Origin: Craspedostauros australis
Lineage: Eukaryota > Bacillariophyta > Bacillariophyceae > Mastogloiales > Achnanthaceae
Length of the DNA stretch: 64,000 nucleotides
Assembly (NCBI GenBank): GCA_026770025.1
Contig: JAMXDE010000074.1
Coordinates: 62,001-126,000, forward strand
Direction: 5' to 3'
A program made the position numbers and the translations under genes. This document shows, piece after piece, positions 31,997 to 62,804 of this stretch (position 1 is the first letter of the stretch; every line of letters starts with the position of its first letter). Under the pieces are notes generated by a model, which was given only the letters and a program-made list of their open reading frames with translations, did no database searches and was not told the origin of the DNA.

Positions 31997-32005
31997 CTCC
32001 CTTTC
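31997..32005 (-). promoter_or_regulatory. Polypurine tract of the Copia element
   Basis: GAAAGGGAG on the minus strand lies immediately before the 3' LTR. Confidence 0.8.
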
Positions 32006-32075
32006 AGTGTTGAGTCGCAGTGAGATCATGACATCGGTGAAAACTTCATCCGTAGTTGATGTTTGAATGCCTCTC

Positions 32076-39726: not shown

Positions 39727-39742
39727 CCACTCGCAGCTACCA
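39727..39742 (-). promoter_or_regulatory. Candidate primer binding site
   Basis: Read on the minus strand from the last base of the 5' LTR the sequence is TGGTAGCTGCGAGTGG. TGGTAGC is what a tRNA ending in GCTACCA (as initiator tRNA-Met does in many eukaryotes) would pair with; the bases beyond fit less well. Confidence 0.45.
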
Positions 39743-40755: not shown

Positions 40756-42786
40756 GAGGAAATTCACTAACCAGGTCGTTTTGGAGGCCAAAGTCCACTA
40801 ACCAGGTCGTTTTGGTGCCCGACACGATGATTGGATGACTGAAATGGCCGGCGTGTCTCTGCGACAACATCGAAAATATTAGTTTAGCCGTGAAGTAAAC
40901 ACATCAACCGTGTCCCTGTCTAGTAGTGTAGAGTACTCCAGTTTTTGATGGTGTTGATGAATCCTGTTCTGCGGAATACGAAGAGAGGGTTAAACCAACT
41001 ATATTGCATACTGACATCGGTCATGGGCATGTACCTACCTTGGGACGGTCCAGATCCAGCTGCAACGAGTGATAAATCTCATATAGCCAGTTCTCATGAT
41101 ACCGTTCGGTCACTGTGTGTACTATGTTGGTCATATGTGCATGCAAAATGTCAAGCATACTTGATTGTAACGACTCCACCACTCCGAGAACACCTCAATG
41201 AGTACAGTCACGAAGTATGAGGTCTCCAGTCCATCTGGAAGGCATCCATATCTGAGAATCTAGATATCATGTAGTGTTGGTGACAGTACTATGAGCTACG
41301 CACCATAATGTACAGTAGATTGCCCAAATGTGCATATAAATGTCAATCACAATCTAATCCAACCCTGTGACCACTTCCAACACACTCCAAAGGATCTGGT
41401 GACGAAGTATGAGGTCTTAGATCCATCTGGAAGGCATCCATATCTTAGAATCTAGATTTCGAGTGGTGCTGTTAGTGACAGTACTACGAGCTACGCACCA
41501 TAGTGTACAGTAGATTGTCAAAATGTGCCTATAAATGTCAATCACAATGAAATCCAGCCTGGCGCGCACTTACAACACACTCCAAAGCGTCTGGTCACGA
41601 AGTATGAGGTGTCCAGTCCATCTGGAAGGTATTCAAATCGATGGATCTAGATTTTGTGTCGTGCTGTGGGTGGCAGTACTGTGAGCCACGCACCATACTG
41701 TACAGTAGATTGTCAAAATGTGCATATAGATGTCAATCACAATCAAATCCAACCCGGCGCGCACTTACAACACACCCCAAAGGATCTGGCCATGAAGTAT
41801 GAGGTCTCCAGTCCATCTGGAAGATAGTCAAATCTGAGAATCTAGAATTTGTGTGGTGCTGTGGGTGACAGTACTACGACCTACGCATCAGGCTGGACTG
41901 GCCTTCCACACGGATACCCTGCGAACGCATCCAAGCCCTCATACTTCGTGGCCAGATCCTTTGGAGTGTGTTGTAATTGGGTGCCAGGTTGAATTTGATT
42001 CCGGTCGACATTTTCTATGCACATTTTGACAATCTACTGTACGGTTCGATGCGTAGGTCATAGTACTGTCACCCACAGCACCACACAAAATCTAGATCCA
42101 TCGATTTGAACACCTTCCAGATGGACTGGAGACCTCATACTTCGTGGCCAGACGCTTTGGAGTGTGTTGTAAGTGAGCGACAGGTTGGATTTGATTGTGA
42201 TTGACATTTTCCATGCACATATGGGAAATCTACTGTACAGTATGGTGCATAGCTCGCAGTACTGTCACCCACAGCACCACTCGAAATCTAGATTCTCGGA
42301 TTTGACTACCTTCCAGACGGATCTAAGACCTCATACTTCGTGACCAGATCCTTTGGAGTGTGTTGGAAGTGGGCGCCGAGTTGGATTTGATTGTGATTGA
42401 CATTTTGTATGCACATATGACCAACTCATTACACACAGTGACCGAATGACAGCACATGAACTGACTAAATGAAATCTGAATCTCCTTGCAGTTGGATGTA
42501 GCTGTTCCAAGGTAGGTACATGCCAATGGCTGATGTTAGTATGCAATCGATATTAGCTGGTTTGACCCTCTGCTCAACAGGATTCATCGACAACATCATA
42601 AACTAGACTACTTTCCACTGTTCTGCAGTGAAATGTTTGTGTTGGCTTCGTGGCTAAATTATTAGTTTCGCCGTTGTCACAGGGACGCGCCGGCCAAAAT
42701 TCCGGCCATTGTGATTGGCCAATACCAAAACGACCTGGTTAGTGGACTTTGGCCTCCAAAACGACCTGGTTAGTGAATTTCCTCAA
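40756..42786. mobile_element. Foldback element, a 2.0-kb palindrome
   Basis: The ends are a perfect 61-bp inverted repeat (40756-40816 and 42724-42784). Each TIR itself contains CACTAACCAGGTCGTTTTGG twice, ten bases apart. Inward of this the two arms stay recognisably inverted copies for several hundred bases. The middle is filled by about 195-bp units: four in direct orientation (landmark GAAGTATGAGG at 41212, 41404, 41599, 41794), then three inverted ones (ending at 41947, 42143, 42339). The axis of symmetry is near 41,900. There is no coding capacity, so a transposase must come from elsewhere; the 8-bp duplication fits the hAT group. The transcript of such a palindrome would be a long double-stranded hairpin. 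Confidence 0.9.
41212..42340. repeat. About 195-bp repeat units, four direct then three inverted
   Basis: Each unit carries the same landmarks: GAAGTATGAGGT, TCCATCTGGAAGG, AATCTAGAT, GTACAGTAGATTG and CAATCACAATC. Copies differ by scattered substitutions, so they are older than the Copia LTRs are to each other. Confidence 0.9.
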
Positions 42787-42794
42787 AACAAATC

Positions 42795-43190
42795 AGCTTG
42801 TGTATCCGAAGGTCATTGCGATTGGTCATCACTAGCTTTGCGAACAAAGACCGAAGCCAAAACCAACTCAAACCATACCACAAACATAACCGATACGGTC
42901 ATTGTCAGTTCGTCCAATGGCAGGGGCTGTGATCTCAGCAAAACAAGTCACACAAAAAACAGTCCAACCGTGTTTTTGCGCATAAGCGTGAAGACATCAA
43001 CACCGCGAAAAGAACACGACACGACGGAAAGTCCTGCACTTTTTCGATACGGACGAAAAGGTGGCATGCCCGCTGCTGATGGGCATTGCCATCAACGAAG
43101 ATGACATCTGACGTATCCCACAACTCATCCTGTGATGTCTGCCAGTGTCCGAATTCTTCGCATTAACTTGTCATAATCCCAAAGCTTGTC
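42795..43190. other. Promoter-side DNA of ATPase gene 2
   Basis: This is the remaining original intergenic sequence before the ATG at 43191. No gene is seen; an overlapping short frame begins inside the foldback TIR and is rejected. Confidence 0.4.
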
Positions 43191-46100
43191 ATGGACGGCC
43201 ATCTCAACAACTCGACAACGACAATAACGACAAGCACAACATCCACACCAGCAATGAACGCAACAACGAAGGCAACCATGAAGGCAACAATGAACACAGC
43301 GACAGCGTCAACGACATCGACGCCAACGATCGCAACAGCGTCGGCCACGGCGCCGCACCTCTCGTTCGACAAGGTCGGTCTCGTCGGACGTGACAAGGAG
43401 ATCCGCATTCTGCGCAACGCCATCCAAAACCAATCTTGGACGGGGCGGAATGCACCATCTTCCGACGAAGAACCCGCAGTCAGCCATCACAAGAAGCAAT
43501 TCTCGACGACGAATCCAGGCGCCACCGATAACGCCGCCACCGACAGCTCCTCCACCAGCAGCGGTAGTGACAGCCGCAGCGACAGCCGCAGCGATTACGC
43601 AGAAACGAACTGCTCGTCCCCAGCACCATCTTTCATCCAACGCCAGATTCGATCATTGGTGCTGATCTCTGGCCAATCGGGAAGCGGCAAGTCGGCGCTC
43701 GTCCGCCATGTGCGCGACAGCCTCCTGCCTCCAACAGCATCCACCGACAACCAAGACGAAGCCAACCATGCCACCACAGAAGCTGTCACCACCAACAACA
43801 CCGATGCAAGCAAATGCTTCCGTGGCTTCTTCGCCGCCGGGAAATGCGAGCTGTCCACCAAGAAGGAAGGTGTTCCGTACGCTGGCATCCAATCAGCCAT
43901 GATGGAGCTGTGCGAGCAAGTGGTAAGCAGAGCTCAACCTGAGATGAAAGCGTCTACCGGCCACAAATCCGGCGCGCAGATCTCCGGAGCCAAACCACGG
44001 ACACTTGCATCGTTGGTATCGAAAGGACTGACGACCGCAGAGCTAGAGCTGCTCTCTCAAGTCATCCCAAACATCGACACCATCATGGCTCTGAGAACGT
44101 CCTACCCATCCGCTGGCGGCATCAATCTTGAGTCTGTCACATCATCGCCATCATCTCTACCTCATGCTTCCGATGCTCCCATCTCTATCTCCACGTTCAG
44201 TCGTGTGGCAGGAGCGGAATCTTCCATCAATTACAAGAACCACACACAACGAATCACGTACATGCTCCGGAGGTTCATGCAGATCCTCTGCAGCTACTGC
44301 CCCGTGGTGATGGTCATCGATGATCTGCAATGGGCCGATCGAGCATCATTGAGCCTCATTCAATCCTGGCTGATGGACAGCCGCAGTGCCTCACTCACCA
44401 TCATTGGTCTGTATCGCTCGAACATGCTCGATGTCAATCAGGGTCTCAAGGCGATGTTGATGTCATTGGAAGAGTCGAAGAGAGAGAGGTCCATCCGAAT
44501 CGTCAAGCTCTCTGTCGAGGACTTGAGCGTTGATGGGGTCGCCGAGTACCTGCAACGGCTTTTCTACGTGTCATCGCATCAGGAAGATGATGGTGATTAT
44601 CTTGAAGCCAAATCGTCGCTTGCACACTTTCTGCCGTTGGCTCAGGTCGTGCATGCCAAGACCGGAGGCAATATGTTCTTCATCCAGCAGTTCCTCGACT
44701 CTCTCGTGACGGATGGTTTCATCACCATCAATCCAACTCCAACTGCAACTGCAACAGCAACTCCATCAGCAACAACCATGGTGGCATCGGATGATACCGA
44801 TCACCAATCGCCATGGACCTGGGACATCAACGCAATCACATCCAACTCAACGACTTCCGGCGACAACATCATGGACCTCATGAAGACGAGACTTCGAAAG
44901 TCCGCATCCGAGCACTGGGTGCTGTCCATTGCGGCCTGTCTCGGGGCGACATTCTCTGCTTCGCACGTATGTGCAGTCATCGCAGGTCTCTTCATCCATT
45001 CCAGCCACTCCAAGTTCTTCCGCGAGGTTTTCCAAGTCACGAAGATGACGAAAGAGGCAGAGATCATGATCATGCTCAAGACGTTCTGTTCGGAAACGTT
45101 GATCGAGAAGGTCAAATCATCACGTACTCGTTCGAACCGCTCTGCATCAACCGATGAGAGCTCCCGGCGAATGTCCAACACGAACAAGACCGCCAACGCC
45201 AACGGCACAAACACAAGCACAAACACGAAGCGATCCAAGTCCCTCCAGTACTCCTTCATCCACGACAAGGTCCAAGAAGCCGCGCTGTCCATGATACCAA
45301 CCGATGACCAGCTCACAGAGCTCAAGTATCGTGTCGGTGAGATCTTGCTGTACGCACTGTCCGATGTTGAGCTCGGCGACAAGATCTTCATGATCGCCAA
45401 CCTCCTCAATACGAGGCCCGATCTCATGCCCAGCCATCGAAAGCTGGATCGCCGAATGAAGATCATCATGCTCAACCACAAGGCCGGCCAGCAGGCTGCC
45501 AACGCATCGGCCTTCCATCTGGCATCTTCGTACTTCACCATGGCAATCGACCTCCTCCCCGACAACCACTGGGAGATGCTGGCCGAGCAAAGCCTGGAGC
45601 TGTACTCATCGGCGGCAGAGAGTCATTTCGTTGCCACCAACTTCGCCACGGCACAATCGTACTGCGAGGCCATCATCAATCAGGACTACGACATAATGAG
45701 CAAAGTGCGTGCATACCACGTGCTGATCGACATCACCTCTGCCGGAATGCACGGTGCCGGTGGAGAGGGACCTGTGGATAGGTGTCTAGATCTACTGTCC
45801 CAGCTCGGCTGCACTCTTCCATCATCGAGCTTTGGCCAAGCGATCTACGTCCTTCGAGGCCTGATGACGGCGAAGAGCACCATCCGGCGGCTGGAGACAG
45901 AACTGGAACACAACCTTTCGTTATCGAAAGATGAAAACCAGGAGGCCATCATGAAGACATTGGACAAGCTCAGCAGGTTATCATACGCCAATGCACCTGA
46001 GTTGATTCCTCTGGTGGTAGTGAAGGCTTTGAGGTTGAGCTTGAAACTGGGAATCATGACGCATTCAGCATCCATGTTAACCTTCCAGGGTGTCCTCATT

Positions 46101-47117
46101 GCTTTCCTTCTCGAGGACATCGACTTGACCTACAAATGCGGACGCATGGCATTGAAGATCATGAAAGCATCGGATGATCGCAGTTTGGATGGAAAGATCG
46201 AGTTGAACTACTACGGGTGCCTGCATCATTGGAGACATCCGCTTGCGGAGAGCTTCGAGGGAGTCCTGGAGGCATCCAGATTGGGTATGTCGACTGGCGA
46301 TGTAGAATCAGCAGCTTGGTCATTGTACTGCTATATCTTGGTGGGCTTATGCATAGGGAAGCCACTTGCGTCCCTCGATAAAGATGCATCCATCCATTCG
46401 AATACCATCAGAGACTTCCAACAAACCGCACAATACGAAGCAAACTTGGTGGCATGGCAGAGTACCTTGAACCTTCGAGGCGCCTCCAATCACACCACGA
46501 AGCTCATCGGAGACGCTTTCGACGAGACCGAGCAGATGTTCGAGGAGGGCTATTCAATGACAGTCGCGCAGGATCGAGTGAAAGCAATACATAAGCTGTA
46601 CCTTGCGATGTACTTTGGAGAATATCAGCTTGGATCAGACATTGGGATCAGATCCTGCCTCAAGTGGCTCAAGGAGGCACCATCCAGTTGTAACCTTTAT
46701 GCAGCGCTATTCCAAAGTGCCCTTTGCTGCTTCTGCATGGCCCACGAAAACAACCCATCGCACTACACCAAGCACGCTCGCAAGTTCTTGAAGGTGCTGA
46801 AACGATGGCAGAAGAAAGGAAATCCTAACTGCGAGCACTACATCACGTTGCTGGAAGCGGAGGCGTCCTTTTTGAAGAAGAGAGACGAAAGAGCACCAAC
46901 GCAATACGAAGAGGCGATCCGGATGATGCGCGAGCGCAAGTATACTCACGACGAGGCGCTTGCGAATGAGAGGTACTCAGCGTTCCTAGCGAGCAGAGGT
47001 GAAAAAGAGGAAGCAAAAGCCCGCCTGCAGGAGTCCATCCGTCTGTACAAAGAGTGGGGCGCCAACAAGAAAGTTGATATGCTGGTGCAGAAGCATCACG
47101 TGCTCCAGTATCGATAG
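43191..47117 (+). CDS. STAND/AAA_16 ATPase with helical repeats, paralog 2
   Basis: The protein has 1,308 residues from an ATG at 43191. The first 58 residues are Thr/Ala/Asn-rich low complexity, then VGLVGRDKEIRILRNAI opens the ATPase module. Walker A is GQSGSGKSALV (161-171) and Walker B is PVVMVIDDLQWADR (371-384). TIIGLYRSN and VVHAKTGGNMFFIQQFLDSL match the corresponding segments of paralog 1. A Ser/Thr/Asn-rich loop interrupts the helical region (around SNTNKTANANGTNTSTNTKR). The C-terminal TPR-like repeats end in LYKEWGANKKVDMLVQKH, closely matching the end of paralog 1. No kinase, cyclase or DNA-binding domain is attached. A signalling role is inferred from the STAND architecture. Its 5' side faces paralog 1 and it is not interrupted by any transposon. 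Confidence 0.85.
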   Translation: MDGHLNNSTTTITTSTTSTPAMNATTKATMKATMNTATASTTSTPTIATASATAPHLSFDKVGLVGRDKEIRILRNAIQNQSWTGRNAPSSDEEPAVSHHKKQFSTTNPGATDNAATDSSSTSSGSDSRSDSRSDYAETNCSSPAPSFIQRQIRSLVLISGQSGSGKSALVRHVRDSLLPPTASTDNQDEANHATTEAVTTNNTDASKCFRGFFAAGKCELSTKKEGVPYAGIQSAMMELCEQVVSRAQPEMKASTGHKSGAQISGAKPRTLASLVSKGLTTAELELLSQVIPNIDTIMALRTSYPSAGGINLESVTSSPSSLPHASDAPISISTFSRVAGAESSINYKNHTQRITYMLRRFMQILCSYCPVVMVIDDLQWADRASLSLIQSWLMDSRSASLTIIGLYRSNMLDVNQGLKAMLMSLEESKRERSIRIVKLSVEDLSVDGVAEYLQRLFYVSSHQEDDGDYLEAKSSLAHFLPLAQVVHAKTGGNMFFIQQFLDSLVTDGFITINPTPTATATATPSATTMVASDDTDHQSPWTWDINAITSNSTTSGDNIMDLMKTRLRKSASEHWVLSIAACLGATFSASHVCAVIAGLFIHSSHSKFFREVFQVTKMTKEAEIMIMLKTFCSETLIEKVKSSRTRSNRSASTDESSRRMSNTNKTANANGTNTSTNTKRSKSLQYSFIHDKVQEAALSMIPTDDQLTELKYRVGEILLYALSDVELGDKIFMIANLLNTRPDLMPSHRKLDRRMKIIMLNHKAGQQAANASAFHLASSYFTMAIDLLPDNHWEMLAEQSLELYSSAAESHFVATNFATAQSYCEAIINQDYDIMSKVRAYHVLIDITSAGMHGAGGEGPVDRCLDLLSQLGCTLPSSSFGQAIYVLRGLMTAKSTIRRLETELEHNLSLSKDENQEAIMKTLDKLSRLSYANAPELIPLVVVKALRLSLKLGIMTHSASMLTFQGVLIAFLLEDIDLTYKCGRMALKIMKASDDRSLDGKIELNYYGCLHHWRHPLAESFEGVLEASRLGMSTGDVESAAWSLYCYILVGLCIGKPLASLDKDASIHSNTIRDFQQTAQYEANLVAWQSTLNLRGASNHTTKLIGDAFDETEQMFEEGYSMTVAQDRVKAIHKLYLAMYFGEYQLGSDIGIRSCLKWLKEAPSSCNLYAALFQSALCCFCMAHENNPSHYTKHARKFLKVLKRWQKKGNPNCEHYITLLEAEASFLKKRDERAPTQYEEAIRMMRERKYTHDEALANERYSAFLASRGEKEEAKARLQESIRLYKEWGANKKVDMLVQKHHVLQYR

Positions 47118-47400
47118 ATCATCGTTGAGTGTTCTCAAGAATAGCAGTCAGTGTGGATAACTTGCGTGCTCGAAGATCGTCCGGGGTACATGCCCAAATG
47201 CGTATCCAGTTCGTGGGCAAGAAGCGAATTGATTTGAAGAGTCAAGGACATATAATAGGATCTTTCTCTGTCTCTCTGCGCTGCATTGGGTACTTCGCGT
47301 CTCGCAATTTCTTGGTGATGCGCCCACGTCAATTCAAGGAGAGCAGTTGAAGTTCAATAAGGGACAGACTATCTCCTCCCCATGGTGTTTCTCGTGGATG
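47118..47400. other. 3' flank of ATPase gene 2
   Basis: A 12-bp match to the Copia LTR terminus (AGTTGAAGTTCA) occurs at 47346-47357, 60 bases before the start of the solo LTR. Otherwise nothing is recognised. Confidence 0.4.
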
Positions 47401-47405
47401 CCTGC
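47401..47405. other. Target site duplication CCTGC (left)
   Basis: CCTGC precedes the solo LTR and recurs at 56493-56497 after its far end, 9 kb away. Confidence 0.85.
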
Positions 47406-47427
47406 AGTTGAAGTTCATCTAAAGAAC

Positions 47428-47763
47428 CACTCGTGTCTCAACTAAGGAGGTATGACTGGAAGAGAATGAGACAGGTCACGGACGAACAAGTACTGATCTA
47501 GCCTCCTCTTGACATGCCCTGAAACCAGATTGAATTACACATCTGGATTCTGACACCAAGACGGATCCTGACGTGTTGCAGTGGCGAGGATTGCAAGCAG
47601 AGAGAAAGGATGCAAACAACAGAGACATCGCATCACTCTCACAACAGCAGCATCCATCACATCGAGCATCAAGCAAGCGCGCGGTTTCGTGGTTGATCAT
47701 CGAAAACCCGTCCTTCCTTGCTGTGAAAATTTTCCTTTCCGCCCGCCCGTCTCTCTTCCCGCC
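47428..47763 (+). other. 5' untranslated end of the DIRS-like element
   Basis: About 336 bases lie from the element boundary to the ORF1 ATG. The frame is open from 47581 but without an earlier ATG. No repeat shared with the right end was seen. Confidence 0.5.
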
Positions 47764-50076
47764 ATGACGGTCTTCGACTTCGGGTCCGTTCGCTCTGCCT
47801 CTCGCTCGTCTCCTTCAGGTGGTGGCGGTGGCTCTGCGGCCCCCACTGGTGCCCCTTTGGGTGCTCCTGCTGGTGGGTTGTTTCCGCCTTCTGCGGTGGC
47901 GTCTGTTACTGGGGGGGTTGGTGATGGCGATGCGGTGGTGTCGTTGTTGTGGGTTGAATCTGTGGGGTCCATCTGTGGTGGTATCATTGGGGGCTCAGAG
48001 GAGAAGGGCGCTGTGCGCTTCTGCACTCGCTCTCTCTGTCCAACGAAGAGCCATGTCGGGAACAAGGCTCCCCTGCGCGATGGGAGCTTCTACGTCCGCA
48101 CCATCAAGGCTGACCAGGCACGATTGGCGCCTTCCATCGACGCATCATGGTTGCCTGTGTCCATGACCAAGGAGGACCTGCTGTCTGAGCTCAAGGCTCC
48201 AGCAGTGTGGCGTGCCTTTCTCCGCGACCTCGCCACCTCACGCCTCCGTGTCGAGGCTGGCGAGGATGTACCGATCGTCTCAGTTGAAGATTTCGCGGCT
48301 GTTGAGGACTTGGCATCCCCTCGCCGCCTCGCTCTCCGCATCAGCCCACGCGCAGACGAGGTCTCCTCCATCAAGCTGCAAGAGCTGGACATCGTGGCAC
48401 CTCTGCCAGACGAGTACCGAGTCTCAGACGACACTGACCCTGCCATCGCTGGCGCTGTCGTTCTGATTGAGAACTGGGAACAGGTCCGCTCCAACTTCGC
48501 GCAGCTGGAGAAGATTGTTGCTGGCATCGAGAAAGGACAGGGCGCCGTTCGCAACGCGGTTGTGGATGACATCAGCGCCGTCATGGCCAGCCTGCAGCGT
48601 CTGCACACTCAAGATCAGCTCCTCAGCGCTCGCATGGGCGAGGGAGCCAGTGCTGACGAGACGCTCAGTGAGCAAATCCTCGGCATCCGATCTGCGGTGG
48701 AGATGACCCACCAGAAGGTGCTCGACTTTGAGCGCTCTGGTGCGGCCAGATTCGCGCATGAGTGGGCCACCCAGCTTCCCACTCTGCGCTCATCGCTCGA
48801 CGAGCTCTTCACTCATTACAGCAACTCGGTCAATGCCATCGTTGGTCGCCTGGATTCCCTGGAGTCCAAGCCATCCTTTTTGCCGGAGCGGTCCTCTCCT
48901 TCTCGTGGAGTCTCCTTTTCTCCCGTCGCTTCCGCCGCATCCATCGCAACCATGGTGGATGATGCCGTCAAGCGCCGCTTCCGCACATTCGAGCGCGACA
49001 TGGAGGCCAGGCTTTCTGCTTCCCGCTCGGTCCCAGGCATCTCCGCACCCAGCGGTGTTGGAACTGACCTTGCCGAGCGGCTGAACGAAGCAGAGCGTCG
49101 CGTGGAGCAAGCCCTTCGACTCCAATCCGACCATGCCTTCTCGACCGACAGCGACACCTTTGCATCGCTTGAGGACGTTCGCGCCTGGATGGACTCCAAC
49201 AATGTCAAGTCAGTGGGATTGTTCTGGGATATGTTCTCCCTGCTCGTGTCCATGAACTCCAAGGCCAACAAGAGCGGCAAGGACCGCGCCGATGAGGGCT
49301 ACTCTGCCAGTCGCATTGCCGCCACTGTTGCTGAGATTGACCTCGCCGCGTCCATGGGCCACATCCGTCCCGTCGCTCTCTTTGCAAAGAACGGTCGTGG
49401 AGAGCTCTCGCCACCTGAAGAAGGCCTGGCTGCTACTCCCAGCTGGAACAAATGGGCCAATGGCATGTCATCCTACCGTGGCATTGTCTCTTCGTCCTAC
49501 CGTGGGTACCTACAAGGCATCAACGGAAAGGTCCCATCCTGTGGCAACCCTGCCCAGGCGGCACTTGCTCGCTACCTTAGTGGGCGCGCTGAGATCCATT
49601 GGCATGGGCTCACCTCATTCATGCAGACCTTCTACCATGACTTCGTGTCGGCATCCAACTTTCAGGCCGCCTCGGCTTGGAACTTGGTCGGCCGATGCGT
49701 CTGCTCCGTCTTTGACGAGCTACATCTGGTCCGATCTGACTCCAGTTTGGTCGCTGGCGAGATGGCGAGCCTCGACAACAAGGCCAAGGTCCTGTGGTCC
49801 GTTCTCCGCTGTCATCGCATCATGGACTCGCTCCTGGAGGTCGAATTCCATGGGCATCCTGCACTTGCTCGGGCGCTGTCCATGTACCAGCTCTCTGAGC
49901 GTGTCGACAGGTCCGAGATGGAGAAGCTGCGCGATGAGCTCAAGCTTGTCAAGTCGCTGGCACAGGATGCCATGGACGAGGCTGAGCGCAGCGGCAAGAA
50001 GGCTGCTGAGGCCAAGCGGGCTGGAGCCAACGCGAAGAACGAGCTCAACCAACAGAAGAAGAAGAACAGTAACTGA
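47764..50076 (+). CDS. DIRS-like element ORF1, Gag-like protein
   Basis: The protein has 770 residues from the ATG at 47764 (MTVFDFGSVRSASR). The N-terminus is Gly/Ala/Pro-rich. A long helical middle contains coiled-coil-like stretches (around IVAGIEKGQGAVRNAVVDD and LNEAERRVEQALRLQSD). A more compact C-terminal half contains aromatic-rich segments (WNKWANGMSSYRG, IHWHGLTSFMQTFYHDFV). It ends in a lysine-rich helix (AEAKRAGANAKNELNQQKKK). No zinc knuckle is present. Position before RT and composition argue for a structural Gag; I do not recognise a named family. It ends in TGA and the same frame continues open into ORF2. Confidence 0.75.
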   Translation: MTVFDFGSVRSASRSSPSGGGGGSAAPTGAPLGAPAGGLFPPSAVASVTGGVGDGDAVVSLLWVESVGSICGGIIGGSEEKGAVRFCTRSLCPTKSHVGNKAPLRDGSFYVRTIKADQARLAPSIDASWLPVSMTKEDLLSELKAPAVWRAFLRDLATSRLRVEAGEDVPIVSVEDFAAVEDLASPRRLALRISPRADEVSSIKLQELDIVAPLPDEYRVSDDTDPAIAGAVVLIENWEQVRSNFAQLEKIVAGIEKGQGAVRNAVVDDISAVMASLQRLHTQDQLLSARMGEGASADETLSEQILGIRSAVEMTHQKVLDFERSGAARFAHEWATQLPTLRSSLDELFTHYSNSVNAIVGRLDSLESKPSFLPERSSPSRGVSFSPVASAASIATMVDDAVKRRFRTFERDMEARLSASRSVPGISAPSGVGTDLAERLNEAERRVEQALRLQSDHAFSTDSDTFASLEDVRAWMDSNNVKSVGLFWDMFSLLVSMNSKANKSGKDRADEGYSASRIAATVAEIDLAASMGHIRPVALFAKNGRGELSPPEEGLAATPSWNKWANGMSSYRGIVSSSYRGYLQGINGKVPSCGNPAQAALARYLSGRAEIHWHGLTSFMQTFYHDFVSASNFQAASAWNLVGRCVCSVFDELHLVRSDSSLVAGEMASLDNKAKVLWSVLRCHRIMDSLLEVEFHGHPALARALSMYQLSERVDRSEMEKLRDELKLVKSLAQDAMDEAERSGKKAAEAKRAGANAKNELNQQKKKNSN

Positions 50077-53000
50077 GACACGGCTCCTGAGTCGGCTGTT
50101 GCGGTGGATGGTGTGGATTCCAGACCATCCTTGCACGGCGTGACTCGGGGCACAGTTGGGCGCAGGTTGCGGCGGACTGATTGCTGTGCGGGCGTCGTTG
50201 CTTTGCGATGCCCGGCTTGGGTGTTCGATCTTGACTCGCTGGGGCTGTCTGTCGGCTTTATCGCCGGTTGGTCTGGCTCTGACGAGGATGGCGCGATCAT
50301 CCGGCAGCTGCTTCCATTGGTGGTGCTGCAACCAGCAGCACCATCTGTGGCGCAGCTCAACAGCGTTAATCTGCTACTAGCCGAGCATTCCATCACCAAA
50401 TCCCTCTTCTCTGCTGTTGATGCCAGTTCTCTCGTTGTGGTTGCTTCATTGCATCGCTCTCGCTGGCTTCCACCTGGTTGGTCGGCAAGGTCTTGGCGCG
50501 TGGAGCACTCACAGGTCGGTGGGGTCACCGATGCCGTAGGCTCTCCGACTATCTTCTGGCGATGCCCTTCGCCTCCGCAAGGCCCCCTACAGATTCATTC
50601 GGTTCCTCGCACTCTGCACTCGGTGCTGGACGACAAGCAGTCGTCTCAGCACTGGCATCCTCCTCCGCCCAGCCTCAATGTTGGACCTCTTCGCGTCGTC
50701 CGCGTGGACGCCGTGAAGGTGTATGGTAAACCTGTGCTGCATCCTGGTGGTCTCATCCCGATCGGCTGCCTTCGGTCGGCGTTTGTGATGGCGCCTTCCG
50801 TGTTCGGTCGTGGCAGGTGGTGTGCTCGCCCACTTCGGTCGTTCGAGCGTCTTCGTGCACTCGACTTCCCTGATACGGTTGCTCTCACCCTTCCTTCTGC
50901 TTCTGCTTCTGCGCTCCCGGGCAAATTGTTCTTCTCTGTTTTGTCCCAACTTTGCACATTCAACGAGGGGGGTACTTTTCTTTTCGATTCTTCTTCCTTT
51001 GCGACTGGCTGCCGTCCTGCCAGTTCGCCTCCATCTTCCGCCGGTCGCGGCTTGAGTCCGTCTGCAGCGGTATTCATTCCTGGATCCGCTGCAGCGGCAT
51101 CTTCCGCTCACCAGGTTACTACCAACTCTATGTCGCTACCATCTTCTGGCGACTCCATGCCTCTCACTTCATCGCTCCACACCATCAGCTCCGTCTCTCC
51201 TCCTGCCTCGTCACCTACCAACGGCAACTCGTCTTGTACTCCTGATTCCACAGATTCATCAGCAGCCAGTCACCCTCCCATCACGACATGGGTGGCTCCA
51301 TCAGAACTTCAGCGCAGCGTGCTGGAGGAGGCAGAATGGAACCGGCGCGCTCAGAAGGCTACCAAGTCCGACGACGCATCCATTCCCACTCACCTCTGGA
51401 TGGATCAGCTGGTCAAGGGGTCTGCAAATCAATGGGATATGGCGGATATGCAGAACCTGGAAGCCGGATGCAACGGCCTGAGGAGATGGATGTTGGGATG
51501 GTGGAGTCGGCGTGTCACCACCTCCTTCTGGAGATGTTACTGTCGGCATCACCCCTCCCTGCGTCGTGTCACCACCAAGGTTGTTGCTGTTTCAACTGAT
51601 GGCATCTACCGATGGAACCGGAAAGGCAGGGCAAGGTATGCAGCATGGCGAAGACAGAGGCGACAGTCCTCACCCGATATATTCGATGCTGCTTGCGATG
51701 CAATCGCTCGAGCGTGTCGCTCCACTTGGTGGAATTGGGACGACGGATCTCGCCCTCTGTTCTGGAGGTGGGCCAAGGAATATCAGACTATCATTCAAGA
51801 GGGTCTGCCGGTACACTTTCAATCGTCGCCGCCAAGCTACACTCAACTGCAACGCAACGCCAACGATCCCCACATTCGAGACATGATGGCAGCCAAGCTG
51901 TGCAAGGTCCGACAAAAGCGATACATCATCCCAGGCACTGTTCACTCCCTCACTTCGTTCTTCGGGGTACCGAAGGGAGAGACCGACATCCGCATGGTGT
52001 ATGATGCAACTGCAAGTGGCCTCAACGACGCTGTCTGGGTGCCTGGGTTCCCACTCCCGACTCTGGACACTCGCCTACGAGCTGTGGGCACCAACACCTT
52101 CATGGCTGACAACGACATCGGAGAGATGTTCCTGAATTTCATGCTTCATCCATGCCTGAAGCGGGTCTGCGGTGTCGACATCACACACTATCTGACTGAA
52201 GAGGACCCCAAGGCTGGTAACAAGCTTGTTTGGGAGCGATGGGACCGGGCAGCAATGGGCTTAAAGTCTTCGCCTTATCAAGCTGTCCAAGCCATGCTCT
52301 TCGCCGAAGAAGCTATCCTGGGGTCCCACACTGATCCGCTCAACGTGTTCCAATGGAGCCAAGTCCGGCTGAACCTCCCTGGATCGGTGAATTACAATCC
52401 ATCTCTTCCTTGGGTTTCGAAACTGGACACCAACGGCAACATTGCAGCAGATGCCTTCATCTACGTGGACGATGTCCGTCCTACTGGAGGCTCACAAGAC
52501 ATCTGCTGGCGGGCTACCAAGCGAGTGGGACACATGCTGGCCTACCTCGGTATTCAGGACGCGGCCAGAAAGCGTCGAGCTGCTACCAGGACCCCTGGTC
52601 CTTGGACTGGGGCAGTGGTGGTGGCACATGACTCAGGTGTGTACGCCACGGCAACACAAGAAAAATGGGACAAGGGCCGCGATCAGGTGGCCTCTGTCCT
52701 GGCAGATCTTGTGAAGAGTGACACCATCGAGCGAAAGAAGCTGGAACGCATACGAGGATTCCTGAACTACCTTTGTCAGACCTACAAGCCAATGACACCC
52801 TACCTGATCGGATTCCATCTCACCATAGATGGATGGAGAGAAGGAAGGGATGCAGACGGCTGGAGAATCCTCAGCTACATCAACCAGACAACATCAACAC
52901 ATGTCGCAACAGGTGATGCCACTCCTCCACCTGAGTACGTCAAGCCTGCTCCGCGTCTTGCTTCCGACCTTGAGGCTCTTCATCAGTTCTTCGCACCACC

Positions 53001-53994
53001 AGAGCCACCACTTCGTCTTATGCGACCTGGTCATTCCATTCGAGCCTGGTACGGTTTTGCAGATGCATCACAAGCCGGATTTGGCGCTTCCCTTCAGGTC
53101 GGCAATGAGATTGCCTTCCAGTACGGCGAATGGACCTCAGAAGAAAATGAAGCCAGCACATCAAACTGGCGTGAGCTCAAGAACTTGGTCGAAGCCTTGA
53201 AAGAATGGACTGCCAAGTTCAAGCTGGAAGGGAGCGAGGTGTTCCTCTTCACGGATAACTCCACAGCTGAGAGTGCGTTTTGGAAGGGAAATTCAACTTC
53301 CAAACGCTTGGCGGACCTGGTGCTCGAGATGAGACTGCTTGAAATGAGGTCAAACATGATCTTGCACGTCATACATGTCAGTGGAGATCGGATGATACTT
53401 CAAGGCACAGACGGATTGTCTCGGGCTGATCACAGCACCGGCGTTATGGCTGGACAGAGCATGCTGCAACACATCCCTCTCCACTTGCAGCCATCAGATC
53501 GAAGAGGCAATCATCTCAAGGACACCATGAGAACATGTATGGAGGGAATCGAATACGAATGGCTCACCCCTGAAGGATGGTACAGTACGGGCCAACGGCG
53601 AGGCAATTTTGTATGGGAATCTGCTCCTGCAGCTGCGGATGCGATGATCGATCAGATTGGCAAAGCTCGGCACAAGCGACCCCAGAACCTGCACGTGGTC
53701 TGCATACCCAGATTAATGACTGGTCGGTGGCGGAGGAAGCTGTTGCGGTTGAGTGACTTCTACTTCAAGGTTGAACGGTGTCATGAATGGCCTGCTCACC
53801 TGCTGGAGCCTTTGTTTGTCTTCATTTGTCTTCCTTATCTCTCTTGGAACCCCAGACTCGACGAACAACGCAAGTTATTGGAAGAACCAAATGAGGTTCT
53901 GCTGCAGCGAGGTGTGTGGGAAGCTGATCCAATCAGGTGCAGGCGTGTTCTGCGCGAACTTCTCCAGTCCGCGCGGGCCCTTTGCCCCCTGTAG
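50077..53994 (+). CDS. DIRS-like element ORF2: reverse transcriptase and RNase H
   Basis: This frame is the direct in-frame continuation of ORF1 after one TGA. Its first ATG is at 50788, about 230 codons in. The first 600 residues are Ser/Pro-rich and unrecognised. RT follows: DIRMVYDATASGLNDAVW, FMADNDIGEMFLNF, AAMGLKSSPYQAVQAMLFAEE and the catalytic AFIYVDDVRP (YVDD at 52462-52473). RNase H then shows WYGFADASQAGFGASL, NWRELKNLVEAL, LFTDNSTAESAFW and GTDGLSRAD. The C-terminal 150 residues contain HVVCIPRLMTGRWRRKLLRL and HLLEPLFVFICLPYL, in the place where DIRS elements often carry an extra domain. It copies the element RNA into DNA in the infected lineage's own cells; there is no integrase. 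Confidence 0.9.
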   Translation, partial: DTAPESAVAVDGVDSRPSLHGVTRGTVGRRLRRTDCCAGVVALRCPAWVFDLDSLGLSVGFIAGWSGSDEDGAIIRQLLPLVVLQPAAPSVAQLNSVNLLLAEHSITKSLFSAVDASSLVVVASLHRSRWLPPGWSARSWRVEHSQVGGVTDAVGSPTIFWRCPSPPQGPLQIHSVPRTLHSVLDDKQSSQHWHPPPPSLNVGPLRVVRVDAVKVYGKPVLHPGGLIPIGCLRSAFVMAPSVFGRGRWCARPLRSFERLRALDFPDTVALTLPSASASALPGKLFFSVLSQLCTFNEGGTFLFDSSSFATGCRPASSPPSSAGRGLSPSAAVFIPGSAAAASSAHQVTTNSMSLPSSGDSMPLTSSLHTISSVSPPASSPTNGNSSCTPDSTDSSAASHPPITTWVAPSELQRSVLEEAEWNRRAQKATKSDDASIPTHLWMDQLVKGSANQWDMADMQNLEAGCNGLRRWMLGWWSRRVTTSFWRCYCRHHPSLRRVTTKVVAVSTDGIYRWNRKGRARYAAWRRQRRQSSPDIFDAACDAIARACRSTWWNWDDGSRPLFWRWAKEYQTIIQEGLPVHFQSSPPSYTQLQRNANDPHIRDMMAAKLCKVRQKRYIIPGTVHSLTSFFGVPKGETDIRMVYDATASGLNDAVWVPGFPLPTLDTRLRAVGTNTFMADNDIGEMFLNFMLHPCLKRVCGVDITHYLTEEDPKAGNKLVWERWDRAAMGLKSSPYQAVQAMLFAEEAILGSHTDPLNVFQWSQVRLNLPGSVNYNPSLPWVSKLDTNGNIAADAFIYVDDVRPTGGSQDICWRATKRVGHMLAYLGIQDAARKRRAATRTPGPWTGAVVVAHDSGVYATATQEKWDKGRDQVASVLADLVKSDTIERKKLERIRGFLNYLCQTYKPMTPYLIGFHLTIDGWREGRDADGWRILSYINQTTSTHVATGDATPPPEYVKPAPRLASDLEALHQFFAPPEPPLRLMRPGHSIRAWYGFADASQAGFGASLQVGNEIAFQYGEWTSEENEASTSNWRELKNLVEALKEWTAKFKLEGSEVFLFTDNSTAESAFWKGNSTSKRLADLVLEMRLLEMRSNMILHVIHVSGDRMILQGTDGLSRADHSTGVMAGQSMLQHIPLHLQPSDRRGNHLKDTMRTCMEGIEYEWLTPEGWYSTGQRRGNFVWESAPAAADAMIDQIGKARHKRPQNLHVVCIPRLMTGRWRRKLLRLSDFYFKVERCHEWPAHLLEPLFVFICLPYLSWNPRLDEQRKLLEEPNEVLLQRGVWEADPIRCRRVLRELLQSARALCPL

Positions 53995-55354
53995 GTCAGC
54001 TTGGTGCGGCTCGTGCTATGGCGAGATTGGAGACAAGAACTTTCCTGTCCAAACTGCCAACGACGATGACGGCATCGATCTCACTCCGGATATTGACAAG
54101 ACTCGCTTCCGAATAGCCCGAAACGGTGACCATCTTATGGTGCCGTTTCAGTGCGATCGCTGTCACTTCCGCAATATCATGCTCCGCGAGCCACTTAACC
54201 ACAGACAACAGGATCGAGAGATGCTTGTCTACATTCGACGAGCCAACCTCGACGCCTTTTGGAGCAGAGAACCATCCACTGTCGCGGCAAATCTTCGCGA
54301 AGCCCGACGCATGGAAGCTTTTGCGGATCGGTTGAACATCCCATCCATCAGCGCTCCAATGGGTCCCTTCCCGCTTCAAGACTCGTGTGGCATGGCTGGA
54401 GCAATGGCAGTACTCGACAGGTCCTTGGATACAGGTCGCTATGCGACCAATGTTCAATGGGAGACCTTTCGACGCACCAGGTCGGCCATCACCAATATTC
54501 ACCAAGCGGGTGTTGCTGGACTTGGAGAGTCTGTCATGGCATACGAGAGGTCCCGCATGTGGATGTCAAGTGTGCCATCGCATCAGTTCTGGTTCACTCG
54601 ATTCATGGAAGGCACCCACAGGAGAGTGGGGCAGATCCGCAAGCCAGCTCGTGCCTACACCATTGACGAGATCCATGGGCTGGAAGCTCTGTTGGAGCAA
54701 GAGTGGAGAATGGACAACAATCACTCCCGGCGCAAGAGAACCGCAGAAGTGGCTATGCTTACAATTGTGGCCTTCTGCACCGGGCTGAGGGGAGAGGAGA
54801 TGCTACAAATCGACCTTTTTGCTACCTCTTCGAGTCTCAAGCATCTTCAAGATGCGAAGCTTCCGCACGCACGGCTTGCCATCATCGGTCGCACCAAGGG
54901 CAACAGGCATGATGGAGCACGATTCGACGTTCCATGTGTGAAGACAACTTCAGGTACCGGATTACAACCTGGCAAATGGATCAAGCGAATGGTGCAACAA
55001 GTCGAAGGTGCGGGACTTCGTAATGGCAAGCTTTTGACAAGGAAACTGAATCCGCCAAGGCTCCTGGAGTTCCGGGACGACGTACATGTGGCGCTGGAGG
55101 CCTTGCAGGCCCAAGGCATAATCGATACAGAGGTGGATATCCGAGACAAATACGGTCTTGACCGCTCAGCTCGCAGAGGGTCCACTTCTCACGCGATCAA
55201 CATGCGTGTTCCAAGAGATATCATCATGGCAAACAACAGATGGCGAACCGAAGCCAACTCAGTCTCGGGAAACCCAAGACTGGACATGGTGGACACCTAC
55301 TCAGCACTGGAGTCACTGCTTCCTGCTGTGTTGGAGTACTCGAAGCAGATGTGA
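53783..55354 (+). CDS. DIRS-like element ORF3: tyrosine recombinase
   Basis: The first ATG is at 53783, inside ORF2 and in the +1 frame; overlap is about 210 bases. The N-terminal part has two CxxC pairs (CGSCY and CDRCH), a possible zinc ribbon, then a helical core-binding-like region (RRANLDAFWSREPSTVAANL). The catalytic domain shows FCTGLRGEEML (Arg at 54788-54790), RRGSTSHAINMRVP (His 55190-55192 and Arg 55205-55207), NNRWRTE (Trp 55241-55243) and VDTYSALESL (Tyr nucleophile candidate, 55298-55300). The enzyme inserts the circular DNA copy by strand exchange through a 3'-phosphotyrosine. The frame is intact to the stop at 55352-55354. Exact assignment of the middle catalytic residues is by motif order only. 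Confidence 0.85.
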   Translation: MNGLLTCWSLCLSSFVFLISLGTPDSTNNASYWKNQMRFCCSEVCGKLIQSGAGVFCANFSSPRGPFAPCRSAWCGSCYGEIGDKNFPVQTANDDDGIDLTPDIDKTRFRIARNGDHLMVPFQCDRCHFRNIMLREPLNHRQQDREMLVYIRRANLDAFWSREPSTVAANLREARRMEAFADRLNIPSISAPMGPFPLQDSCGMAGAMAVLDRSLDTGRYATNVQWETFRRTRSAITNIHQAGVAGLGESVMAYERSRMWMSSVPSHQFWFTRFMEGTHRRVGQIRKPARAYTIDEIHGLEALLEQEWRMDNNHSRRKRTAEVAMLTIVAFCTGLRGEEMLQIDLFATSSSLKHLQDAKLPHARLAIIGRTKGNRHDGARFDVPCVKTTSGTGLQPGKWIKRMVQQVEGAGLRNGKLLTRKLNPPRLLEFRDDVHVALEALQAQGIIDTEVDIRDKYGLDRSARRGSTSHAINMRVPRDIIMANNRWRTEANSVSGNPRLDMVDTYSALESLLPAVLEYSKQM

Positions 55355-55761
55355 TACATCTGCGGGGACGACGAGGGGGGAGAGAACAGGTCCATTGTGC
55401 CAGCACACACACTGCCACACTGGAGCTGATTCAAGCTAGGTGCCATCATCTTCGCTCACCCAATATTGACCATAAAAGGACAACCATGGGAACTTGACGC
55501 TGTCGTTCCAAATGGCTAATCCAGGAAAATATATGGGCACGTATCTGGAATCGAACTACATGTTCTTCCATGCGTTGCGAAGCTCTGCCTGCCACCAATG
55601 GCGTGAGGACTCGGTCGACTGATTGTCGGCCGGTCCACAACTACCCCCCACGTTAGCACTTCAATACAGTAGAGTAATAAGTATACTCCTACGTATTGAT
55701 GTACCACCGTGTGACAATGTGAAGGAAGCTGCACAGGTCGCAATGAACACACAGGATGACC
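55355..55761 (+). other. 3' end of the DIRS-like element
   Basis: About 400 non-coding bases. A short box resembling the TFIIIB-recruiting B box of tRNA genes occurs on the minus strand (GTTCGATTCC near 55545), but no tRNA fold is seen. Confidence 0.5.
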
Positions 55762-55807
55762 GGACTACTTTTCACTCAGTGTGTTCCTTGTCGCACCTTG
55801 AAATTAT

Positions 55808-55832
55808 TTTGGCGCGAAATTTTGGCGCGAAA
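55808..55832. promoter_or_regulatory. Tandem E2F/DP-type sites in the solo LTR
   Basis: TTTGGCGCGAAA occurs at 55808-55819 and 55821-55832, identical in spacing to the pair in the full-length element. Confidence 0.7.
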
Positions 55833-56492
55833 CCTCCCACCAACAAATACGGAACAATCACCCTTTTCCCTCCTTCTCCCACACTCATTCATGAATCACC
55901 ACTGACTCAAACACTATCCGAAGTCAATGGGATCAAGATACCCTGGGAACTATGTGCTCTCCTGAACTATTGTAATGCAGCCAACCTGAATTCCATTGTC
56001 AGCCAAACAACCTGACAACCTTGCATGACAACAGCCAAGAGATCCTCCCTGCTTCAACACACGCAGGGAATCTTACATCAATTCCTGCGGCCTGACAACC
56101 TGTGTTCTCAATCCCAAACCTCAATCAAGTTGTCAAGGCTTAGTACTCGAACGTAGAACGACTACGATGAGATACTGGAGAAAGAGAGAAAGAGAGGACC
56201 CGTCCGCCCTCAGCACTGAACCTCTGAAGGTCAGTGCAGAGCCGCACCATTCAGACCGACTATCGTTTCTTCATCCTACATCTCAAACTGATCAACTCAC
56301 AATGCAGACTATTCAAATAACCAATAGCACAACTTAAGATCAGCACTACAGCACTAATCTACTTCATTGTCACTAACTACTAATCCCCAGACGGTCGCCC
56401 CACGTTGACTTCACCATCAGATTCCCAGAATCTGGCAGTCAACTAGGCCATCCCTTCCGGATCGTGTCACAACAGCACACGAAAATCCAACT

Positions 56493-56497
56493 CCTGC
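56493..56497. other. Target site duplication CCTGC (right)
   Basis: Second copy of the 5-bp duplication of the solo LTR. Confidence 0.85.
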
Positions 56498-56760
56498 ATT
56501 TACCTTTTTGGCGCGAGACTCTTCGACTTCGTCGAACGCAACAGCCTCCTTTCTTTTTTCCTCCTCTTTCATTCACGAACCATCACTGACTCAATGTCGA
56601 GATCAATCCGAGCCCAGTCATTCTTGGAACTATGCTCTCCAGATCCAACTAACTGCAACTCGTCTCGATTTCCTCTTTGTCTATGACAACCACATTGTTG
56701 TCACGGTCACAGCATGGATATCCAACTTACTTCAACTCAAGTAAGGGAATCCAAAGGTGA
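56498..56760 (+). repeat. Old, diverged relative of the Copia LTR
   Basis: In the same order as in the 753-bp LTR one finds TTTTGGCGCGA, CTCCTCTTTCATTCACGAA, CCATCACTGACTCAA and TTGGAACTATG with CTCTCC, separated by diverged sequence. It keeps one of the two E2F-type sites in altered form. It is clearly older than the adjacent solo LTR. Confidence 0.6.
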
Positions 56761-59381: not shown

Positions 59382-59462
59382 TAATCAGCCGAAATCCCAA
59401 AAAGCATGCTTAGGGTTACGCTATTTACCTTCAACTGTGGTTCGTTCACGCCCAACAAGAGA

Positions 59463-59670
59463 GACCGGACAAAACCGGAGAAACTAGGTCAGACCGGACA
59501 GACCGGACAAAATGACCGGACAAAACGGACAGACCGGACAGAACGACCGGACAAACCGGACAGACCGGACAGACCGGACAAAACGACCGGACAAACCGGA
59601 CAAAATGACCGGACAGACCGGACAAAACGGCCGGACAGAATGGATAGACCGGACAAAATTAACGAACTTA
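59463..59670. repeat. CCGGACA tandem array, left arm
   Basis: Some 18 imperfect copies of GACCGGACA with or without an AAA spacer occur. It mirrors the array at 62505-62685. Confidence 0.9.
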
Positions 59671-60754
59671 ACGGACACTGTTTAACGGACAGTGGCCCAA
59701 ACCAGCACTGAAGGTTGGCGCCGCGACGCGCGATGGATCAAATGGGAGCAACATTGCGAGTGTCTGGGTTGAGCGTGGAGGACTACCTCCGGCAAGTATT
59801 TTTGGTTGATGCGATTAGTATGTGGAAAGTAGATAGCAAAAGCTGTGAAGAGTGATGCTGGTTCTTAATGTTTCGTACTCCATTCTGAGACACTTTGCTC
59901 AAGTTCAATACGCTCTACTCAATTGAGGGTTGCCGTGCTTGGTTTCAAGATAGAAAATAAGCTTGATTTGTCGCACTTCCTGGTAGATGTGTTCTTTGAA
60001 TTTGCGTTTTCCAAATTGCACATATATACTGGTCAGGTTTGCTGCAACTCTGATGGTGTCACCTTCGTTTGTTCAACTTCTAGGATGTCTTGTTGGAGGA
60101 GCATACTTGCAGTGGACATGTTGAGCACCAAGCCTCCACAAGAATTCATTGCTTCTCTTGGGTGTATGCATCTATCATGTTCCAATGAGGCCAATTCCAC
60201 CATGGGATGCAACTCTTTCTTGCCCAACTGTTTCCAATGATCGCGAAGGTGAGCTTCAAACTGGCTGAGCACAACATCAACAAACTCAGCCATGTGGAAG
60301 CAGCATGTGTCCCACACTTCTGCAGCAGATAACTCTTCTTCAGTCATTGGCAAGACACCATCTAGCAAGTCCTGTAGAATGATGAATTTTGCTTTGCTAG
60401 CCTTTCACTTGATACAACCCTCTCTTCTTGACATGGTGGGGATGTTTGGAGTATACTGTGGTGTTTGTGCTATGTCTTGACCACTCGTTTCTTGTTGATT
60501 CTGTGGAACAATGATGATTTCACTCAGGATTTGGCTTCTGTGCAATTCTTCGAGCTTGGCATGATGCCTGGCTGTCTGAGTTCCTGAGAGATGAAACGAG
60601 AGAGCTTGCCCCAAACATTCAAGAAGAACGAACTGTTGCGAAAATTCAAGCTTGTCCATCCACGGATGCAGGAGCAGCAAGAAGCATTCTTCGATTGGAC
60701 TGCTTGATGTGTTGTGCCAAGAATAGACAAAGAACAGACCAAGTTGCCAAGTAC

Positions 60755-61158: not shown

Positions 61159-62504
61159 ATTGCAACAGCATCAATCTCACAACCAAGAACACAGCAATGA
61201 TGTTGACAAATCCTCAAGTAGGGAAGATCAACCAAAATGCACCAAACATATTGGCAATTTCACACCTAATGGAGAGAATACCAATGACAACAAAGCCAGA
61301 AGCATTGCCACCACATCACATCAACAGAAGCCACACATACCCTCTGTACAAATGCTTGTTGTTTAACCATTGGGTGTCCTGGAACAAGGCTTTATGGCTG
61401 AACTGGTCTTTGCCCTTTGTTTCTTGACATGACAATGGATCAAAGAAATACCATGTTCCAATCTCACTATGCATCTTGGCCAGAAACTAATTCAGGTATT
61501 TGGGATGACATGCACACAATGACTACTTCCGCAGCAAAGATATCACAATATGACAACACTGGAAGAGGCTTCTGAATGTTCCTTGCAGTTCTATGCTTTC
61601 TATGGACCAATCCAAAGAATGCCAACACCCTTGATGCAGCATATGGGATATTTTGATAGTATTCAATATGGAATCATCTATGATGCTGGATCAAAATGAT
61701 TGCAGCAATGAAAGCTGACATGATTGTTTGGCCAAGCTCATTGAATGATCAAGAGGGAACAGCTTTCATTGCCACAGTTGACAGCACAGATTTTCATGTA
61801 TGGGAGTAGAAACACTCAACACTCAACACAGATCTGGCATGGGGCTCGAAGAAGTTCAACCACGGTGCTCTCAAATACGAGATCGCAATCACTGTGTGCC
61901 ACTCAAAGTGTGTTTGGATCCACGGGCTCCACCAAGGAGGTAAACATGACTTGACTATTTGTTGTGAAGGATTGTTGCATCAGATCACAGGCAAAAAAGT
62001 CATCATGCTTGATCGTGGGCACAGGACAAGTCGTATGAAAAAGAATATGATGTGAACACCAAATGAGCTCGATGGGCCAGAACTTGAAAACTTCAAGAGC
62101 AGAGCACGGTTGCATCATGAGACCTTCAATGAGAGACTGGGGTTCTTCAGCGTGCTGGAGATCACTTTTTGCATGGCACAGAAAAGCAGAAGCATGTGTT
62201 TGAAGCCATTTGTGTCATTGTGCAATACCATCAGGATGATGGAGCAGAACTCTTCGAGATTTGATGTCATACCACAAAACATTAATAAGAACAACACACG
62301 TATTGCAATAGAACTGGGCATTTGCATTGGCATGATGCCATACTTCAGTGCAAAGCTGGCTTGTTGTCTTGTTTCGCTGATCTGTTCTTGTGGTTTGGGT
62401 TGGCTTGCGTCACTCCGTGCGAAGTAGTTTTGTCTGTTTCTTCACGATCCAAATGTCCGTTATATTCGATTAACCGTCCGTTAACTAGTTCGATAAATTA
62501 TTGA
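61159..62504. other. Centre of the TIR element without clear coding
   Basis: Short broken frames only. Nothing with a recognisable motif. Confidence 0.4.
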
Positions 62505-62685
62505 GTTTTGTCCGGTCTGTCCGGTTTGTCCGGTTTGTCCGGTCTGTCCGGTCTGTCCGGTCGTTTTGTCCGGTCTGTCCGGTTTGTCCGGTTTGTCCGG
62601 TCATTTTGTCCGGTCTGTCCGGTCGTTTTGTCCGGTCTGTCCGGTCTGACCTAGTTTCTCCGGTTTTGTCCGGTCTCTCTCGTGC
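62505..62685. repeat. CCGGACA tandem array, right arm (inverted)
   Basis: TGTCCGGTC units form the reverse-complement partner of the left array and would pair with it in a foldback structure. Confidence 0.9.
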
Positions 62686-62804
62686 CTGGACCAACGACAA
62701 TTGAATAGCAATAGCGTAACCCTATCTACGATTTTCAGGATTTCAGGCGATCCACTATTCTGTCTCAACGCAGTGTATTAAGTCCCGGTAAATTAGATCA
62801 CGAG

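Follow-up and report, generated by a model that had tools for sequence, protein, structure and literature searches.

Retrotransposons that encode a tyrosine recombinase (YR) are already known to insert without duplicating their target (PMC4157794, PMC3266345). In the case of DIRS1, a circle is described as recombining with the target where the two share a short sequence, which gives a 3-bp junction and no duplication (PMC3266345), and typical YR sites are given as 6 to 8 bp between inverted arms (PMC3212892). PAT and DIRS carry a methyltransferase and Ngaro does not (PMC4157794, PMC3266345), and the gene order of VIPER-like elements is listed as Gag, YR and reverse transcriptase (RT)/RNase H (PMC6681497). 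Terminal repeats are thought to be necessary for the copying of such elements, and a multi-copy lineage without them would be a natural experiment on this point. A single truncated Ngaro without repeats is mentioned by Muszewska and colleagues (PMC3783388), and a table reports repeats in only part of the analyzed VIPER and TATE copies (PMC6681497); among the titles, abstract openings and passages of open literature covered by our search terms, no report was found of a YR retrotransposon lineage that has many copies but lacks terminal repeats. Here we describe a candidate for such a lineage in a 64,000-nucleotide stretch of the diatom Craspedostauros australis (assembly GCA_026770025.1, contig JAMXDE010000074.1, positions 62,001 to 126,000; hereafter “the window”), where an insert at 47428-55761 splits a solo Copia long terminal repeat (LTR). 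Our preferred reading, to which we assign a probability of roughly 0.57, takes this insert to be a young YR retrotransposon. In the copies found, its lineage would be built from a single unit, A-(gag, RT/RNase H, YR)-B, lacking the second repeat pair A2-B2, and it would integrate as unit circles.

The insert is 8,334 bp long on the forward strand, as are all of its features given below, and its ends were fixed by comparing copies. We read it as an inserted YR retrotransposon in the form of a single unit, A-internal-B, in which no terminal, split or inverted repeats were found. A C stands both at target base 47427 and at 55761, the last base of the insert, and the junction can therefore be placed at either of two positions 1 bp apart. 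By alignment to a repeat-bearing relative, L051, the 5′ untranslated region (47428-47763) and the 3′ untranslated region (55355-55761) are the equivalents of its repeats A and B. The left terminal 25 bp, CACTCGTGTCTCAACTAAGGAGGTA (47428-47452), are identical in L051 and, judging from the sequence, likely represent the recombinase site; the right terminal 10 bp, CAGGATGACC (55752-55761), are shared with L051. Open reading frame (ORF) 1, at the gag position, encodes 770 amino acids (aa) from its ATG and ends in TGA (47764-50076). ORF2, an open frame of 1305 aa without a profile match (50077-53994), carries motifs that we take to be those of RT (GLKSSP, YVDD) and RNase H (DAS, TDNSTAE), and ORF3, an open frame of 533 aa that overlaps ORF2 in a different frame (53753-55354), carries motifs that we likewise take to be those of a tyrosine recombinase (TGLRGEE, RSARRGS, NNRW, VDTYSA). 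ORF1 and ORF2 share one frame and are split by a single TGA (50074-50076), and ORF2 would need read-through or reinitiation. A second lineage keeps the RT, RNase H and YR motifs too (47%, 39% and 35% identity), and the YR box motifs are conserved in three lineages (window, L051 and L072) over the extent of the alignment, in which the L072 sequence breaks off ahead of the Tyr. The usual H-x-x-R box of YRs carries a His; in all three lineages an Arg (RSARRG or RSFRRG) stands at that position. No methyltransferase match was obtained with Pfam in ORF2, where Pfam misses the RT as well, there was no Rfam match at expect values (E) up to 1 within 47300-56600, and no relatives of the RT were found in viral contigs. 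A search of the element for DIRS1-type inverted repeats or hidden short repeats returned nothing beyond chance-level matches, and 15- to 25-mers from the element ends (down to 15-mers with 3 mismatches) occurred once in the window copy, with no second direct or inverted copy.

Copies were sought in the window's own assembly (75 Mb in 90 contigs, written below as C with a number; the window copy is C72), by searches that give minimum copy numbers. Allowing up to 3 mismatches, the left terminal 25-mer had at least 17 matches, against 0 for a backward control; by similarity over the left 473 bp, 12 belong to the window lineage (86-99% identical to the window copy) and 5 to the L051 lineage. One left-region match (C41:107565-107988; 85%, from base 3) was left out, its end not being among the 25-mer matches, and 6 of 21 right-region matches were not counted, two being upstream halves of counted copies (C11, C15) and four belonging to the L051 lineage. 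The 15 right ends thus retained correspond to 12 independent sites, given that the same flank recurs at C34, C11 and C22, and another at C1 and C15. For nine left ends a right end lies at a matching position (C72, C6, C5, C4, C35, C19, C34, C11 and C22); with both flanks common to C34, C11 and C22, these represent seven independent complete insertions; the copies on C19, C34, C11 and C22 exceed the unit length, presumably through later insertions. The ends are constant: left ends begin CACTCGTGTC after a C in 14 of 14 independent flanks (a few copies have 1 or 2 changes inside the terminal 25 bp), right ends finish in GATGACC in 14 of the 15 read, and B likewise closes the diverged members, whose right ends at C6:722944, C1 and C15 show 91-93% identity in this region.

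The split direct repeats of Ngaro and PAT, A1-B1-A2-B2, were found neither in the window copy nor at these 12 left and 15 right ends. No left end of the window lineage is preceded by B (0/12), which means that no A2 is among them, and no right end runs into A (0/15), fragments and diverged ends included. Across the assembly, L051 gave the single exact match to the B/A junction; seven further B/A matches contain 2 or 3 mismatches, do not exceed the backward control (10 matches), and none of them coincides with a counted left end. L051 itself (C2:3710944-3720081), ∼73% identical to the window element over the two longest aligned stretches (4,489 and 1,928 columns), is laid out as A1 (from its position 291), B1 (8319-8709), A2 (8710-9023), a 14-bp spacer and B2 (9038-9428), with repeats that are 100% identical; B1 and B2 are thus identical direct repeats of ∼391 bp, 719 bp apart. 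The window element starts where A1 of L051 starts and ends where its B1 ends. A short A-14bp-B copy at C2:590079-590796, which has no coding part, matches the A2-14bp-B2 stretch of L051 at 100% identity, an incomplete one of the L051 lineage (C6:2288063-2288687) is 92% identical over 616 of 719 bp, and a third L051-type left end on C63 continues into internal sequence, its right end not having been found there. The short A-14bp-B copies resemble the solo AB repeats reported for Cafeteria Ngaros (PMC8547959). The spacer of the L051 repeats, CCGCCCGCCC, is similar to the 5′ region found in the window element but not to what follows A1 in L051 itself.

The site of the insertion in the window is an LTR of 753 bp, interrupted after its first 22 bp (47406-47427, the last base being the target C) and resumed for the other 731 bp (55762-56492), both on the forward strand and flanked by the 5-bp target duplication CCTGC (47401-47405 on the left, 56493-56497 on the right). 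The rejoined LTR aligns without gaps to both LTRs of a full-length Copia in the window (31244-40494), with 15 and 14 substitutions, confirming to the base the original prediction that the two parts rebuild an exact LTR between CCTGC duplications. These two LTRs (31244-31996 and 39742-40494, reverse strand) are uninterrupted and serve as empty sites; they differ from each other at 3/753 positions. The full-length element bears its own 5-bp target duplication, ACAAC, matches the RVT_2 (3.5e-25) and gag_pre-integrs (1.2e-09) profiles, and therefore has the Copia-type pol between LTRs of the solo-LTR sequence and the 5-bp duplication that characterize Ty1/Copia. A single in-frame stop separates its open frames of 2147 and 307 aa (32076-39443). 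In its LTR length, target duplication and full-length neighbor the solo LTR resembles known ones, the insertion alone being unusual, and in our judgment there is nothing out of the ordinary in a solo LTR interrupted by a second element. The order of events had been called clear, and Copia insertion is indeed the oldest event at the locus; the solo LTR may have formed before or after the YR element arrived, because insertion of the YR element into the 5′ LTR of a full-length Copia, followed by a crossover anywhere in the 731 bp to the right, gives the identical product.

Empty counterparts were sought by joining the flanks of the copies on C6, C5, C4, C35, C19 and C34. All 40 matches scored (of 290 candidates) run through the junction, 22 for C5, 13 for C35 and 5 for C34, with none for C6, C4 and C19. 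Nine of them, three for each of the three sites, were fetched, and 9/9 had no base gained or lost at the junction. With the window LTR, four insertions thus have paralogous empty sites that yield base-exact maps, and none of the four has a target site duplication: the element adds exactly CACTCG...GATGACC after a C. The claim of insertion without target duplication therefore extends from the window to C5, C35 and C34, where the check for duplications at other insertions found none. The base at −1 is C in all 14 independent left flanks (10 of the window lineage, 4 of the L051 lineage), A at −3 shows a weak bias (9/14; P ∼0.001 before correction for positions examined), and G at +1 is not significant (6/13; P ∼0.1), the +1 base in the right flank of L051 being C. 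Only C at −1 is constant, and the target motif suggested earlier, GAAC/GGAC, does not exist. The invariant C makes recombination at a shared base more likely, and since the insert ends in C, the crossover could lie on either side of one shared base. The original prediction also held that the element integrates without staggered cuts; this is not supported, since the absence of a target duplication is a YR hallmark that is silent on stagger, and recombination with a matching core would leave the same product whatever the stagger. Clean junctions are what circle-target recombination predicts, and the stagger of the cuts cannot be read from them. Of the original description, the YR-type retroelement in a solo LTR stands, and “DIRS-like” is only loosely right, because the search turned up neither inverted terminal repeats nor an internal complementary region, and because split direct repeats are what the nearest relative carries.

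The pattern recurs outside the window lineage. A second lineage, with a YR 33-34% identical to that of the window, is present at C25:435928 and C4:1705513, and its 3′ region is also found at C5:589198 and C11:1257301 (93% and 82% DNA identity). It ends in GGTACC in 4/4 right ends, each next to a different flank, and a search of the 1.1 to 1.8 kb fetched downstream of the copies did not find the 3′ region repeated. This absence rests on right ends, since the left end on C25 was not found and the C4 copy is cut short on its 5′ side; comparison of C25:427900-433200 with C4:1697500-1702800 gave no clear shared element sequence, only short matches of 27 to 56 columns. A third family at C4:264628 (YR 29% identical) has a 337-bp B repeat in copies 729 bp apart. 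More distant YR relatives (30-31% identity, with internal stops) lie near the starts of contigs C56, C86, C32 and C76, within the first 26 kb, on three of the four in pairs ∼17 to 18 kb apart; they are possibly subterminal arrays.

Four full copies (C72, C6, C5 and C35) could be aligned and are 0.54-1.76% apart, with a hierarchy in which 25 sites unite C6 and C5 against 4 conflicting sites. The ratio of nonsynonymous to synonymous substitution rates (dN/dS), computed without codons bearing gaps or stops, is 0.16-0.45 in every pair except C6-C5, and a stop-free full-length YR frame is present at seven places of the lineage (C72, C5, C4, C19, C6, C35 and C22). Hierarchy and dN/dS outside the youngest pair together speak, at the level of sequence comparison, for recent copying under selection.

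A cycle consistent with these observations would run as follows. The integrating form would be a double-stranded circle of one unit, closed at a B/A junction GATGACC/CACTCG (the slash marking the junction), which the YR would recombine with a target C, its site being formed by the conserved 25 bp of the left end and ∼10 bp of the right end. The repeat-less state would have been inherited by the lineage and would not reflect later damage to each copy. Regeneration of the ends is the least certain step; the likeliest route would be transcription and reverse transcription through the B/A junction of the circle, in which case the terminal redundancy that A2-B2 gives other elements would come from the circle. 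A bolder version, which we put forward tentatively and hold to be rather doubtful, is that a YR lineage gave up its terminal repeats and lives like a Crypton with an RT, the circle being both transcription template and integrating form, and that split direct repeats are composite and not required. They would then arise through insertion of an A-B mini-circle behind the C that terminates an already integrated unit; the C target rule is obeyed by L051 at its own B/A junction (...GATGACC/CACTCG...).

Several observations weigh against the unit-circle reading. The split-direct-repeat form evidently works in this genome, since both L051 and the family at C4:264628 carry it; the complete insertion sites of the window lineage are few; and for three left ends (C5:330231, C19:542055 and C41:202180) no right end was found. 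Pfam and PDB profile searches gave no RT or YR match in the element proteins, so that these names are based on motifs, together with the lack of a target duplication and the architecture of the relative, and a single-sequence structure model of the catalytic part of the YR gave no usable fold (predicted local distance difference test [pLDDT] score of 31). In the youngest pair, C6-C5 (0.54% apart), dN/dS is 0.5 for ORF1 and 0.65 for ORF2, with a dS of 0 in ORF3. Frames are broken in two of the four aligned copies (C5, with ORF1 shifted; C35, with ORF1 shifted and two stops in ORF2), and further YR matches contain stops (C11, C34, C2:2898180 and C6:720936) or are fragments (C15 and C1). The circle itself is a predicted form, the analysis having covered the assembly. 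Finally, one evolving master could give an equal copy hierarchy and equal dN/dS.

This last point leads to the main rival, in which one or a few repeat-bearing copies (A1-internal-B1-A2-B2) drive the lineage and single-unit circles, often made by reverse transcription or by YR resolution of a circle, are dead-end insertions, the master having been lost or remaining unassembled. Besides accounting for hierarchy and dN/dS, such a master would fit the repeat-bearing form of L051 at ∼73% identity, the presence in the genome of the reciprocal product A-14bp-B without an internal part (C2:590079-590796, and incompletely C6:2288063-2288687), and the repeats in 7 of 15 analyzed VIPER copies of Trypanosoma cruzi Dm28c (PMC6681497). 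However, as far as left ends and B/A junctions show, none of the 12 left ends belongs to a repeat-bearing copy, and the pattern is repeated by diverged members of the first lineage and by the second lineage (4/4 right ends); as both lineages are without repeats, the master would have to be missing twice, and we consider this explanation possible but somewhat unlikely. Loss in place, whereby copies inserted with A2-B2 and later lost the pair by B1-B2 recombination, as solo LTRs form, would find its substrate in the ∼391-bp identical direct repeats of L051, 719 bp apart, and a parallel in the Cafeteria solo AB repeats, which are attributed to recombination between 5′ and 3′ repeats (PMC8547959). 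It seems improbable, since no copy read, not even one of the closest pair, could have escaped the loss, while L051 kept its repeats.

The two remaining explanations are less credible still. A DIRS-like element whose recombinase makes unstaggered cuts would account for the lack of target duplication at four sites, but recombination at a matching core leaves no duplication (PMC3266345, PMC3212892), which by extension would hold for staggered cuts as well; the invariant C at −1 (14/14) points to a shared core base, and the inverted repeats of DIRS1 were not found, all of which makes this reading very improbable. That A2-B2 was collapsed by the assembly in every copy is conceivable in that the counts were taken from the assembly and not from raw reads; yet tandems of 719 bp (L051) and 729 bp (C4:264628) survived in the same assembly, and its contiguity (75 Mb in 90 contigs) suggests long reads, so we give this artifact hardly any weight. 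Integration of single-unit circles by a lineage without A2-B2 accordingly remains the reading that we favor.

Elsewhere in the window, a 1316-aa open frame that includes an AAA_16 ATPase domain (43167-47117) lies directly upstream of the solo LTR, a large inverted arrangement of ∼195-bp tandem repeats (40756-42784) adjoins the full-length Copia, and an inverted pair of short repeats rich in GACCGGACA, 80% identical to each other, occupies 59391-59676 and 62476-62744.

Among described systems, VIPER-like elements have the YR preceding the RT and Cryptons are without an RT. The window element, with YR motifs in its last ORF and RT/RNase H motifs in ORF2, differs from both. It resembles Cryptons in being a repeat-poor YR element, thought in their case to move as a circle (PMC3212892), and in inserting as a unit without duplication, whereas fungal Cryptons have direct end repeats of 4 to 6 bp compared with 1 bp (C) here. 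DIRS1-like elements are also YR retrotransposons that insert via a short identical target sequence without duplication (PMC3266345); the window element differs from them in having a shared target of 1 base instead of 3 and in that the search for inverted terminal repeats and an internal complementary region found neither. The short A-14bp-B copies parallel SIRE of T. cruzi, an A2-spacer-B2 derivative of VIPER, and the proportion of repeat-bearing VIPER copies in Dm28c (7/15) contrasts with 0/12 left ends here (PMC6681497). From Ngaro and PAT the window lineage differs in having no split direct repeats at any end read and in a putative RT and YR that Pfam does not recognize. With them it shares insertion without target duplication and, for Ngaro, the order gag-RT/RNase H-YR (PMC8547959), and its relative L051 has exactly their repeat layout.

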